Shown piece after piece: positions 8,118 to 10,818 of a DNA stretch of 23,359 nt (position 1 is its first letter; each line of letters opens with the position of its first letter). Source of the stretch: a virus. The notes below the pieces were generated by a model. It saw only the letters and a list, made by a program, of their open reading frames with translations. It was not told where the DNA came from and made no database searches. A program made the translations under genes and the position numbers. The DNA is taken from positions 1 through 23,359 of the IMG/VR virus record IMGVR_UViG_3300047548_000910, one strand, 5' to 3'.

Positions 8118-8960
8118 ATGAACCAAACTGCTAACCCATTACGTCAGTATTTCCGTCGCCCCAGCATCTATTTGAGACTACCTAGCGGCGGTGAATTTTG
8201 GCCGCAAGAATCACTGGCCTCAACTGAAAGCGGCGAATTTCCTGTTTTTCCCATGACTGCCATTGATGAAATCACGTACCGCACACCTGATGCACTGTTC
8301 AATGGAGAGGCTGTGGTCTCAGTTATTCAAAGCTGTGTGCCCAACATTCGAAATGCTTGGGAAGCACCTGCAACTGATATTAACTCTATCTTGGTTGCTA
8401 TTCGTATTGCCAGTTATGGTCACGAACTGGAGTTAGGAACTGTTTGTCCAAACTGTAGCAATCAAGCCGAATATACTCTGGACTTGCGGACTGTGCTGGA
8501 CCAACTCAAGAGCCCAGATTTCAAACACACTATCAAGCACGGGGATTTGGAGATTTTCTTCCAGCCTATTAGCTATCGCCATCAGCACGAGACCAACAGT
8601 GTACAGTTTGAGGAACAAAAGATGATTCAGATGATTCCTGGATCAGATTTGCCCGACGACGAAAAGTTGCGCAGACTTAATGCTGCACTCAAGCGTATCA
8701 CAGAACTCACAGTCAATGCTCTCAAGTACAGCATTGCAGGCATTCGTACTCCCACAGCATTTGTTACTGAAACAGAGTTCATTCAAGAGTTTTTAAACAA
8801 CTGCGATCGCAAGCTGTTTAATCAAATTCGAGATCATGTGATTGATCTTAGGCAGGTCTCTGAACTCAAGCCACTGCATATCAAATGCACTGAATGTAGT
8901 CACGAATATGACCAGCCACTAACGCTGGATATGGCAAGTTTTTTCGAAGCCGCCTCCTGA
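8118..8960 (+). CDS. 26: Baseplate hub protein gp26-like, zero-frame product
   Basis: This is a 280-residue member of the T4 gp26/gp51 baseplate family. The key block is FPMTAIDEITYRTPDALFNG (residues 44-63), followed by GEAVVSVIQSCVPNI and WEAPATDINSILVAIRIASYG. Two cysteine pairs, CPNC at 110-113 and CTEC at 257-260, would form a zinc site flanking a helical middle. In T4, gp26 (208 residues) helps assemble the central baseplate hub. AGGTG precedes the ATG by 5 bases. The gene diverges from the tape-measure gene. Its final codons contain a slippery heptamer at 8939-8945, and the next frame is open in -1, so a longer 352-residue product ending at 9175 is likely (276 residues of gp26 plus 76). 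The short form ends SFFEAAS. Confidence 0.85.
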   Translation: MNQTANPLRQYFRRPSIYLRLPSGGEFWPQESLASTESGEFPVFPMTAIDEITYRTPDALFNGEAVVSVIQSCVPNIRNAWEAPATDINSILVAIRIASYGHELELGTVCPNCSNQAEYTLDLRTVLDQLKSPDFKHTIKHGDLEIFFQPISYRHQHETNSVQFEEQKMIQMIPGSDLPDDEKLRRLNAALKRITELTVNALKYSIAGIRTPTAFVTETEFIQEFLNNCDRKLFNQIRDHVIDLRQVSELKPLHIKCTECSHEYDQPLTLDMASFFEAAS

Positions 8961-9012
8961 ACCTAAGCTACGAAGAAATTGACAAGTTGGTCCAACAAAT
9001 GGATCAGGAGGC
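8939..9012 (+). promoter_or_regulatory. Predicted -1 ribosomal frameshift site (slippery heptamer plus stem-loop)
   Basis: In the gp26 frame the sequence is AGT TTT TTC GAA, which contains T TTT TTC (8939-8945), where both phenylalanine codons re-pair perfectly after a -1 slip. Six bases later starts GCCTCCTGA (8952-8960), which is perfectly complementary to TCAGGAGGC at 9004-9012. After one A-A mismatch, two further pairs form (8962-8963 with 9001-9002). The loop is 37 bases. The gp26 stop TGA is inside the stem. The -1 frame is open from 8912 to the TAA at 9175. Heptamer, spacer and stem all match the standard bacterial and phage -1 frameshift layout. Confidence 0.75.
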
Positions 9013-9175
9013 AGATGCACTGCGAAAACAAGGACTCAAAATGTCATGGTACATGCGTGGTGGTGCCTCTTACGAAGATGTCATGAACATGAGTTACCAC
9101 GAGCGCACAATGCTCAACGAACTGATCAAAGAAAACCTCGAAACCACGCAGAAATCCAAGCTGCCATTCTTCTAA
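8987..9175 (+). CDS. Downstream frame of gp26, probably made as a -1 frameshift extension
   Basis: The frame is open from 8912 and ends at the TAA of 9173-9175. If read by a -1 slip at 8945 it adds 76 residues beginning RSRLLNLSYEEIDKL to residue 276 of gp26. Independent initiation would need TTG at 8987 or ATG at 8999, and neither has a recognisable ribosome binding site. The protein-like residues before the TTG (LLNLSYEEID) would then be lost. Visible features are a charged helix, the motif WYMRGGASYEDVM, then an acidic/basic helix ending SKLPFF. This arrangement resembles the G/GT tail assembly chaperone pairs of other tailed phages by organisation, not by proven homology. It ends in TAATG, overlapping the next gene. 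Confidence 0.7.
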   Translation: MVQQMDQEADALRKQGLKMSWYMRGGASYEDVMNMSYHERTMLNELIKENLETTQKSKLPFF

Positions 9176-9681
9176 TGTTAGACCTAGACACAGTTAAAAA
9201 AGACATCGAGACCTGGATTGTGAACTTTTGCGAAGTTGCACATCCAGCTTTAGGCAACTTCCCGCCATGTCCTTACGCTCGCAGCGCAAGATTAAAAAAC
9301 AGCTACGAAGTATACCTGGGCATGGATCCATACTATGATCTCAAGAACAGAGCACGCATGGGTATGGGCAACCGAGAAGTTATTATCTATGTCTACGACC
9401 CCAAAGAGTGGCCACATCCGTTGTTTAGTGCTAGCTTGCACAGCGCCAACACAGAGTTTTTGTTAGACGCTGATATCTTAGCACTGGAAGATCATCCCGC
9501 AGACGTAGAAGATGTCAACGGCGTTATCATGAATCAAGGGACCTACGCCATGGCCCTGGTACAAAGTCTGTCAGATCTAAACGCCAAAGCCAAGCTAGTG
9601 GCCAAGAAAGGTTTCTACGATACTTGGCCAGAAGAATACCTACAAGCATTGTTTCAGCACAGAGAGGACCCACGCCAATGA
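9175..9681 (+). CDS. Unknown 168-residue protein
   Basis: The start chosen is the ATG at 9175, which shares its A with the preceding TAA (TAATG). The frame stays open farther upstream (to 9046) but only as antisense-like overlap with the gp26 extension. The protein starts MLDLDTVKKDIETWIVNFCE and has a cysteine/proline-rich patch HPALGNFPPCPYARSARL (residues 23-40), with Cys19, His23 and Cys32. A later acidic segment reads ALEDHPADVEDVNG, and the ending is helical. No signal peptide or membrane segment is seen. I do not recognise the function. The tight coupling on both sides (TAATG before, ATGA after) shows it is read as part of one accessory operon following gp26. Confidence 0.75.
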   Translation: MLDLDTVKKDIETWIVNFCEVAHPALGNFPPCPYARSARLKNSYEVYLGMDPYYDLKNRARMGMGNREVIIYVYDPKEWPHPLFSASLHSANTEFLLDADILALEDHPADVEDVNGVIMNQGTYAMALVQSLSDLNAKAKLVAKKGFYDTWPEEYLQALFQHREDPRQ

Positions 9682-10112
9682 GCTGGCAGTTTGGTCGCAT
9701 TGATCTTAGTAAGACACACTATGTCAATGATCTTGACTGTCACTTGCTGGACCCTGTGCCTGTAAACGATGTACAACGTGTGTACAGAGACTACTGTGTT
9801 CACAAGCATTTCCAAAGTGTTATGCCCATGCTGCCCGGTAGACTCACGGATGCCAGCACAGAAATCATCGGCTACTACGATCAGGATAGGTTAGTGGCCT
9901 GGAGCATGTACAGACTCTGGGACCACGAAAACATACTCAGCGATCACTTTGCTTGGGACTATCGTAATCCCAAGCTTAGGCTGGGCATACGCAGCATAGA
10001 AAACGAATGTGCAATCTACAGAGATCGCGGATACCGCTACATGTACTTTGAAGCGGTGGAACCTTATATGCTAGACATACAAGGATTTGAAATACTAGGA
10101 CCAGTAAAATAA
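9678..10112 (+). CDS. GNAT-fold acyl/aminoacyl-transferase-like protein
   Basis: This 144-residue protein starts at an ATG overlapping the upstream TGA (ATGA), an arrangement that favours re-initiation. The block EIIGYYDQDRLVAWSMYRLW is a GNAT-like pair of strands. It is followed by NPKLRLGIRSIENECAIYRD (the acyl-CoA-binding loop and helix position) and RGYRYMYFEAVEPYML. This order resembles the C-terminal half of arginyl/leucyl-tRNA-protein transferases (the ...LGI..I..E...A...GY.Y.Y pattern) as well as ordinary GNAT acetyltransferases. Substrate is unknown. At 144 residues it would be a single GNAT domain without the N-terminal domain of Ate1/Bpt. Fold assignment is inference from pattern; catalytic residues cannot be named. 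Confidence 0.6.
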   Translation: MSWQFGRIDLSKTHYVNDLDCHLLDPVPVNDVQRVYRDYCVHKHFQSVMPMLPGRLTDASTEIIGYYDQDRLVAWSMYRLWDHENILSDHFAWDYRNPKLRLGIRSIENECAIYRDRGYRYMYFEAVEPYMLDIQGFEILGPVK

Positions 10113-10447
10113 TGGATATCTATACAATTTGGGCAAACAAAGAAGGCGACATTTCTGACCTAGACTGGGTCAACGGCATGAAAAGTTTCTTTGATCATTT
10201 AGTAAGCGAAGGCAAAATGGAAAGCTACAGAATCACACGCTGTAAAATGGGCTTCCGTAGTATTGCAGACATGCCTGAGTGGATGATTCTCATGGAGTTT
10301 AAGGACATGGGACAAATGGATTCAGCGTTTCGCAGAGTTGCACCGCTGGAAGGCGAACTTGAAACCAAACACCGGAGCTTTAACCAGTTTGTTGCTGGTG
10401 ACATTCAACACGCATTGTTTCGTGACTGGCCGGATCAGAACCTATGA
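10112..10447 (+). CDS. Small alpha-beta protein, DUF6614-like
   Basis: This 111-residue protein begins MDIYTIWANKEGDISDLDWV, continues with YRITRCKMGFRSIADMPEWM and ILMEFKDMGQMDSAFRRVAP, and ends HALFRDWPDQNL. The layout (strand, helix, strand with R-x-T-R, strand, helix, FRRV) looks like a ferredoxin-like dimeric alpha-beta barrel and resembles a bacterial family of unknown function that I believe is DUF6614. The family name is from memory and should be treated as tentative. The start overlaps the upstream stop as TAATG, and its own stop overlaps the next ATG (ATGA at 10444-10447). No catalytic residue can be named. Confidence 0.65.
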   Translation: MDIYTIWANKEGDISDLDWVNGMKSFFDHLVSEGKMESYRITRCKMGFRSIADMPEWMILMEFKDMGQMDSAFRRVAPLEGELETKHRSFNQFVAGDIQHALFRDWPDQNL

Positions 10448-10818
10448 TAGTACAAGCACCTATTTCAGTAGGCGAGTTGATTGACAAGATAACAATCTTA
10501 GAAATCAAACAGCTACATGCAATAAACGATCAACAACGTGGCAACGTAGAACAAGAACTGGCCCTGCTGTCAGAGATTGCCAGCAGCCTAAACCTGTCAG
10601 CCCATGTGCAAGAACTCAAAGAACTGCTAAAAGAAGTCAATCAAGCTCTGTGGTACATTGAAGACTTTAAACGTCAATGTGAAGCTCGTCAGGACTTTGG
10701 TGCTACGTTTGTTGATGCTGCCAGACAAGTGTATCTCAAGAACGACCGACGTGCATCGCTCAAACGCAAAATCAACGAAGTCAGTGGCAGCAGCATCGTA
10801 GAAGAAAAAATTTACTAA
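10444..10818 (+). CDS. DUF6165-like protein
   Basis: This 124-residue protein has the layout I associate with DUF6165: an N-terminal PISVGELIDKITILEIKQLH, a central helix pair, LWYIEDFKRQCEARQDFG, then FVDAARQVYLKNDRRASLKR and a C-terminal LVEEK-like ending (SIVEEKIY). It is all helical and soluble. The family has no known biochemistry; in bacteria it tends to sit near glycosyltransferase and surface-polysaccharide genes, which is background knowledge rather than evidence here. It is coupled to the previous gene by ATGA and followed 12 bases later by the sulfotransferase-like gene. Confidence 0.7.
   Translation: MIVQAPISVGELIDKITILEIKQLHAINDQQRGNVEQELALLSEIASSLNLSAHVQELKELLKEVNQALWYIEDFKRQCEARQDFGATFVDAARQVYLKNDRRASLKRKINEVSGSSIVEEKIY

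Follow-up and report, generated by a model that had tools for sequence, protein, structure and literature searches.

Tail-assembly chaperones made in a short and a long form have their closest described counterparts to the present locus in T4-like phages. PMC12846349 credits Vladimirov, Gautam and Davidson 2022 (Virology 566:9-15) with the poly-T slippery signals in the TAC-N genes of these phages, and the PRFect paper (PMC10885494), citing the same work, states that some T4-like phages dispense with frameshifting and carry, besides a short gene, a longer fusion gene; a 2016 review (PMC5009743) still left T4 out. These chaperones very probably belong to the same family as the gene described here, that of T4 gp26/gp51, and follow the same TAC-N/TAC-NC logic. 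The arrangement of a short gene plus a fusion fits T4 genes 26 and 51, both members of PF12322, whereas the DNA analysed here, an IMG/VR record of 23,359 bases that we call the window, appears to use a frameshift. As both papers cite Vladimirov et al. 2022 (doi 10.1016/j.virol.2021.11.003), the kind of system was already known, and the statement in an earlier note on this DNA that no such report was known to its author for the gp26 family had been overtaken by that study.

Two further systems resemble the locus by design. In the lambda gpG/gpGT system (Xu, Hendrix and Duda 2004), as proposed for the window, a -1 slip shortly before the short gene ends yields a C-terminal extension, and the pair lies beside the tape-measure gene; the tape-measure candidate of the window is divergent, while the tape-measure gene of lambda lies downstream on the same strand, and the likeness is one of design. 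In phage Adele and the Vandenendeviridae/Andersonviridae (PMC12846349) a conserved poly-T -1 site is likewise found at the end of TAC-N, with the -1 frame unannotated; these are other phage families with a GTTTTT motif, and here too the likeness is one of design.

What is added here is the reach of the signal to RaK2-like, Agrobacterium, Pseudomonas and freshwater jumbo lineages, a covarying stem at a fixed position, and the errors of annotation that have accompanied the gene. The abstract of the 2022 study is said to report frameshifting as conserved in several T4-like groups and to name genes 26 and 51. The reach across lineages may already be contained in Vladimirov et al. 2022.

Slippery site, stem and reading frames in the window

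The earlier note had described, at the end of the gp26-family gene, a slippery heptamer, a 6-nt spacer, a 9-bp stem that includes the gp26 stop codon and a -1 frame open to 9175, and this description is correct base for base (Table 1). Read in the gp26 frame, the heptamer falls into TTT (8940-8942) and TTC (8943-8945), which is the phase required for slippage. The stem (8952-8960 with 9004-9012) is perfect over its 9 bp, and folding of 8939-9020 returns exactly the stem that had been claimed, at -20.6 kcal/mol with z -1.66; by this z the fold of the window alone is only mildly unusual, and its significance comes from the relatives. From 8945 the -1 frame has 76 open codons and ends at TAA 9173-9175. 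Its first ATG codon is residue 19 of the extension, and ATG 9041 in the same frame has AAGGA upstream.

The TAA of the -1 frame shares bases with the ATG of the next gene (TAATG, 9173-9177), so that frameshifted ribosomes could reinitiate there; phrog_28122 matches a longer open reading frame at 9046-9681 (E 2e-14).

Table 1. Features of the gp26-family locus and its flanks, in window coordinates
Feature	Position	Strand	Evidence or remark
Probable tape-measure protein, 927 aa, with VanY-like peptidase segment	5293-8076	-	PF02557, E 1.4e-5; homologous divergent neighbours in relatives
gp26-family gene of 280 aa with two CxxC pairs, putative short form (TAC-N)	8118-8960	+	PF12322, phrog_150, cysteines conserved without exception in alignments A1 and A3
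Slippery heptamer T TTT TTC, matching X XXY YYZ when read in the 0 frame	8939-8945	+	Sequence; about 190 loci have T TTT TTN at this position
Spacer, 6 nt	8946-8951	+	Helix onset peaks 5-7 nt past the heptamer in 65 non-redundant loci
Stem 5' arm GCCTCCTGA, with the 0-frame stop TGA 8958-8960 at the arm end	8952-8960	+	
Stem 3' arm TCAGGAGGC	9004-9012	+	Loop between arms 43 nt
-1 frame extension, putative TAC-C, 76 aa, predicted all-helical domain	8945-9175	+	Non-synonymous/synonymous ratio 0.056; pLDDT 91.4
Predicted frameshift product TAC-NC, 276 + 76 = 352 aa	8118-9175	+	
Next gene, ATG 9175-9177 overlapping the -1 frame stop (TAATG)	9175-9681	+	Sequence

Conservation, covariation and coding selection among relatives

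The signal in the window is far beyond chance. Among loci collected from named phages and from IMG/VR, we find T TTT TTN at the same codon pair, followed by an open -1 frame, in about 190 related loci (a few of them duplicates of one phage), in which the identity of gp26 to that of the window falls as low as 23-35%. They include Atu_ph07, Phosso, PA5oct, RaK2, BF, 121Q, GAP32, CBB, Munch and Kaldavass, as well as XaC1, SCTP-2, a Vibrio jumbo phage, S-CAM8 and other contigs of the cyanophage group; a large set of contigs related to L005 is referred to here, as a working label, as the freshwater group. CM1 and XacN1 carry T TTT TTT, a run of seven. In four divergent loci of the cyanophage group the second codon is TTG or TTA, so that Phe has become Leu while the run of six T is kept, which indicates that the constraint acts on nucleotides.

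Pseudomonas phage Cygsa01 (L025, 2807-2811) is a real exception: both frames are present, the heptamer is absent, and TAATG stands in its place. Cygsa01 counts against the frameshift reading, and its TAATG junction possibly represents a third way to make the gp26 and C-terminal parts. In two other loci (L177 and L180) the loss of the heptamer is only apparent, with an early stop inside gp26 and the heptamer still downstream. The three cases of AAAAAAG retain T TTT TTC as well.

The stem was surveyed in 65 loci left after removal of near-identical sequences, the best helix being scored at each offset past the heptamer. Its onset peaks sharply at 5-7 nt. The mean best helix is -6.74 kcal/mol; dinucleotide shuffles average -0.67 (sd 0.19), and random positions of the same genes -0.80 (sd 0.19). 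No sequence likeness links the arms of one lineage with those of another: GCCTCCTGA/TCAGGAGGC in the window, GGCTCTTTGT/ACAAAGAGCC in Atu_ph07, CCATCAAGTCC/GGACTTGATGG in XacN1 and TCCTAGTATCG/TGATATTAGGA in PA5oct. Across 32 freshwater (L005-group) loci there are 19 two-sided changes, against 5.7 expected from shuffles, and the covariation score of 0.296 (0.182 in shuffles) is reached by none of 500 shuffles. The onset lies within the 5-9 nt spacing expected of a frameshift stimulator. Only 36 of the 65 loci reach -5 kcal/mol or better with a simple helix, and in most cyanophage and RaK2-like loci the helix is weaker or missing.

Comparison with the relative L002 indicates that the -1 frame is under purifying selection. 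Its ratio of non-synonymous to synonymous change is 0.056, compared with 0.147 for gp26, while the same bases read in the other frames give 1.3 and 4.1; the changes fall 7/1/25 over the three codon positions. A block of 15 codons (8966-9010) is identical to that of L002 (codon permutation P 0.005), which would be expected were the RNA under constraint as well. The stretch of 14 codons preceding TTG 8987 holds five changes, too few for the dN/dS test suggested in the earlier note. All 36 members of alignment A4 have Arg directly after Phe-Phe in the -1 frame, and the extension's first long helix is predicted at residues 9-36 of the extension (pLDDT 91.4), spanning the first ATG codon. Conservation from residue 1, together with this predicted helix, argues that the extension begins at the heptamer.

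Probable frameshifting and its alternatives

What else could account for such an arrangement? The C-terminal segment might be a separate small gene inside the -1 frame, translated for example from ATG 9041, either through a ribosome binding site of its own or by ribosomes that reinitiate once gp26 has ended. The AAGGA before this ATG and the small separate open reading frame annotated in several relatives are in keeping with this. In view of the AAGGA, the absence of a ribosome binding site asserted in the earlier note is too strong a statement, although most freshwater relatives do lack a conserved internal start. Of the 78 freshwater-group loci, however, 60 have no ATG in the first 30 codons of the -1 frame, and 44 have no ATG, GTG or TTG in the first 20. 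Conservation begins at the heptamer, 5' of any start codon; a start at ATG 8999 or 9041 would cut or remove the first predicted helix; and a separate gene leaves heptamer, spacer and stem unexplained. We regard it as very unlikely.

Slippage could also be placed in transcription, with RNA polymerase slipping on the T6 run at the junction (T7 in CM1 and XacN1) to give a mixed mRNA pool, the long form being made from the slipped transcripts. Efficient transcriptional slippage usually requires longer runs. The T run keeps a length of six, as a rule with C at its end, and its phase fits X XXY YYZ exactly, as suits two tRNAs slipping in tandem; a covarying stem with a fixed onset of 5-7 nt is a typical stimulator of ribosomal frameshifting. 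We regard polymerase slippage as highly improbable. As to a chance overlap, or a sequencing error that splits one gene, the + strand of the window contains TTTTTT 12 times and the fold taken alone reaches only z -1.66, but about 190 loci, drawn from isolates and assemblies independent of one another, show the break at this very codon. This already refutes both explanations, and their probability is practically nil.

From the observed signal, its conservation, its covariation and the coding selection on the -1 frame we infer that programmed -1 ribosomal frameshifting very probably produces a short and a long tail-assembly chaperone (TAC-N/TAC-NC) here, the slippage event, its rate and the chaperone function being the conditional parts of this proposal. 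The anatomy of the sequence predicts two forms with a common N-terminal domain. Most ribosomes would stop at TGA 8958-8960 and release TAC-N of 280 aa; the stem (8952-9012) would pause a minority, and these would slip back one base on T TTT TTC, the two Phe tRNAs re-pairing from TTT TTC to TTT TTT, and would read on to 9175 to give TAC-NC of 352 aa with its C-terminal helical domain. On the model of lambda gpG/gpGT, the tape-measure protein may be coated by many copies of the short form, and few copies of the long form may recruit tail-tube subunits. Conservation and covariation lend strong support to the programmed frameshift and the G/GT-type pair put forward in the earlier note, and a tape-measure-like divergent neighbour is conserved as well.

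A more elaborate proposal, which we hold to be unlikely, is that the jumbo TAC-C, not demonstrably related to that of T4, shares the same slippery site, that a stem fixed in position with a lineage-specific loop (about 10 to 50 nt) sets a lineage-specific ratio of short to long form, and that TAATG in the window couples frameshifted ribosomes to the next gene.

Protein family, the T4 gene pair and the divergent neighbour

The 280-aa open reading frame is a member of PF12322 (T4_baseplate; E 1.2e-14, 55 bits against a curated cut-off of 24.5), and phrog_150 (baseplate hub) matches the gene with E 2.7e-15. In T4 both gp26 (208 aa) and gp51 (249 aa) belong to PF12322. The extra C-terminal segment of gp51 aligns with the -1 extension of the cyanophages (hhalign 95.5%, E 1.5e-8; reversed control 0.3%), and phrog_634 matches both. 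T4 gp51, a longer paralogue of gp26 and a baseplate hub assembly catalyst, thus has a gp26-like body and a C-terminal segment homologous to the cyanophage extension, but is encoded in one frame by a separate gene, and we found no slippery heptamer at its end. This match suggests that the two T4 genes correspond to what relatives make from one by frameshifting; T4 appears to encode as two genes the pair that its relatives would obtain from a frameshift.

The extension of the jumbo group taken alone gives 2.8% with the T4 gp51 C-terminus, no better than its reversed control (2.4%), so that this direct match is not significant. Full-length profiles connect the jumbo group with the cyanophages (98.5%) and the cyanophages with gp51 (99.0%), so that the link from jumbo group to gp51 is transitive. 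Searches of Pfam and PHROG with the extension of the window returned no match of note, and Foldseek against the PDB no significant match for either domain. The structural model of gp26 (8118-8957) resembles uncharacterised giant-phage proteins of about 440-690 aa, with TM about 0.5 by query length, among them proteins of Erwinia phages Special G and phiEaH2 and Ralstonia phages RSF1 and RP12; these larger proteins are perhaps diverged tail chaperones.

The gp26-family gene carries a hub-component annotation in many records, the GenBank product name of CBB gp250 is 'structural protein', and genetic work cited in PMC3004832 puts gp26 in the hub. The same paper tabulates T4 gp26 and gp51 as hub assembly chaperones, and in the available part of the CBB virion mass-spectrometry list neither CBB_250, the gp26 homologue, nor CBB_249 appears. 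The label of hub protein used in the earlier note is therefore probably wrong, and a tail-assembly chaperone with an extension fits better. In GenBank the -1 frame is blank in RaK2 and PA5oct and a separate hypothetical open reading frame in other records. For many large phages our results correct how a conserved assembly gene is annotated; they also support gp26 as a tail-assembly chaperone over a baseplate hub part, and support the view of T4 genes 26 and 51 and the frameshift as two routes to the same protein pair, whose function could then be tested by swapping the arrangements in laboratory phages.

The divergent neighbour is a probable tape-measure protein, judged by its position, its length and the presence of its counterpart in virions. 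Outside the cyanophage group, 102 of 110 loci have a divergent open reading frame of more than 150 aa that starts at most 450 nt upstream, and many of these are homologous to the candidate of the window. The counterpart in CBB, CBB_251, is listed as a virion protein with 29 peptides in the part of the list available; its 722 aa would correspond to about 108 nm at 0.15 nm per residue, and the CBB tail measures 123 nm including collar and baseplate. Atu_ph07 lacks this arrangement: next to its gp26-family gene lies a divergent open reading frame of only 90 aa, and the predicted tape measure is gp701.

The VanY-like D-Ala-D-Ala carboxypeptidase segment occupies residues 671-752 of the candidate, and when the whole protein was searched in the named-phage collection, only this segment found matches, in peptidases of Vibrio phages. 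Elsewhere in the window, two small genes at 10112-10818 (+) match DUF6614 and DUF6165, the first without a PHROG match, and a radical SAM protein (PF04055; 12770-13783, -) is encoded between a gene for a SegE-like GIY-YIG endonuclease and recombination genes resembling gp46/gp47.
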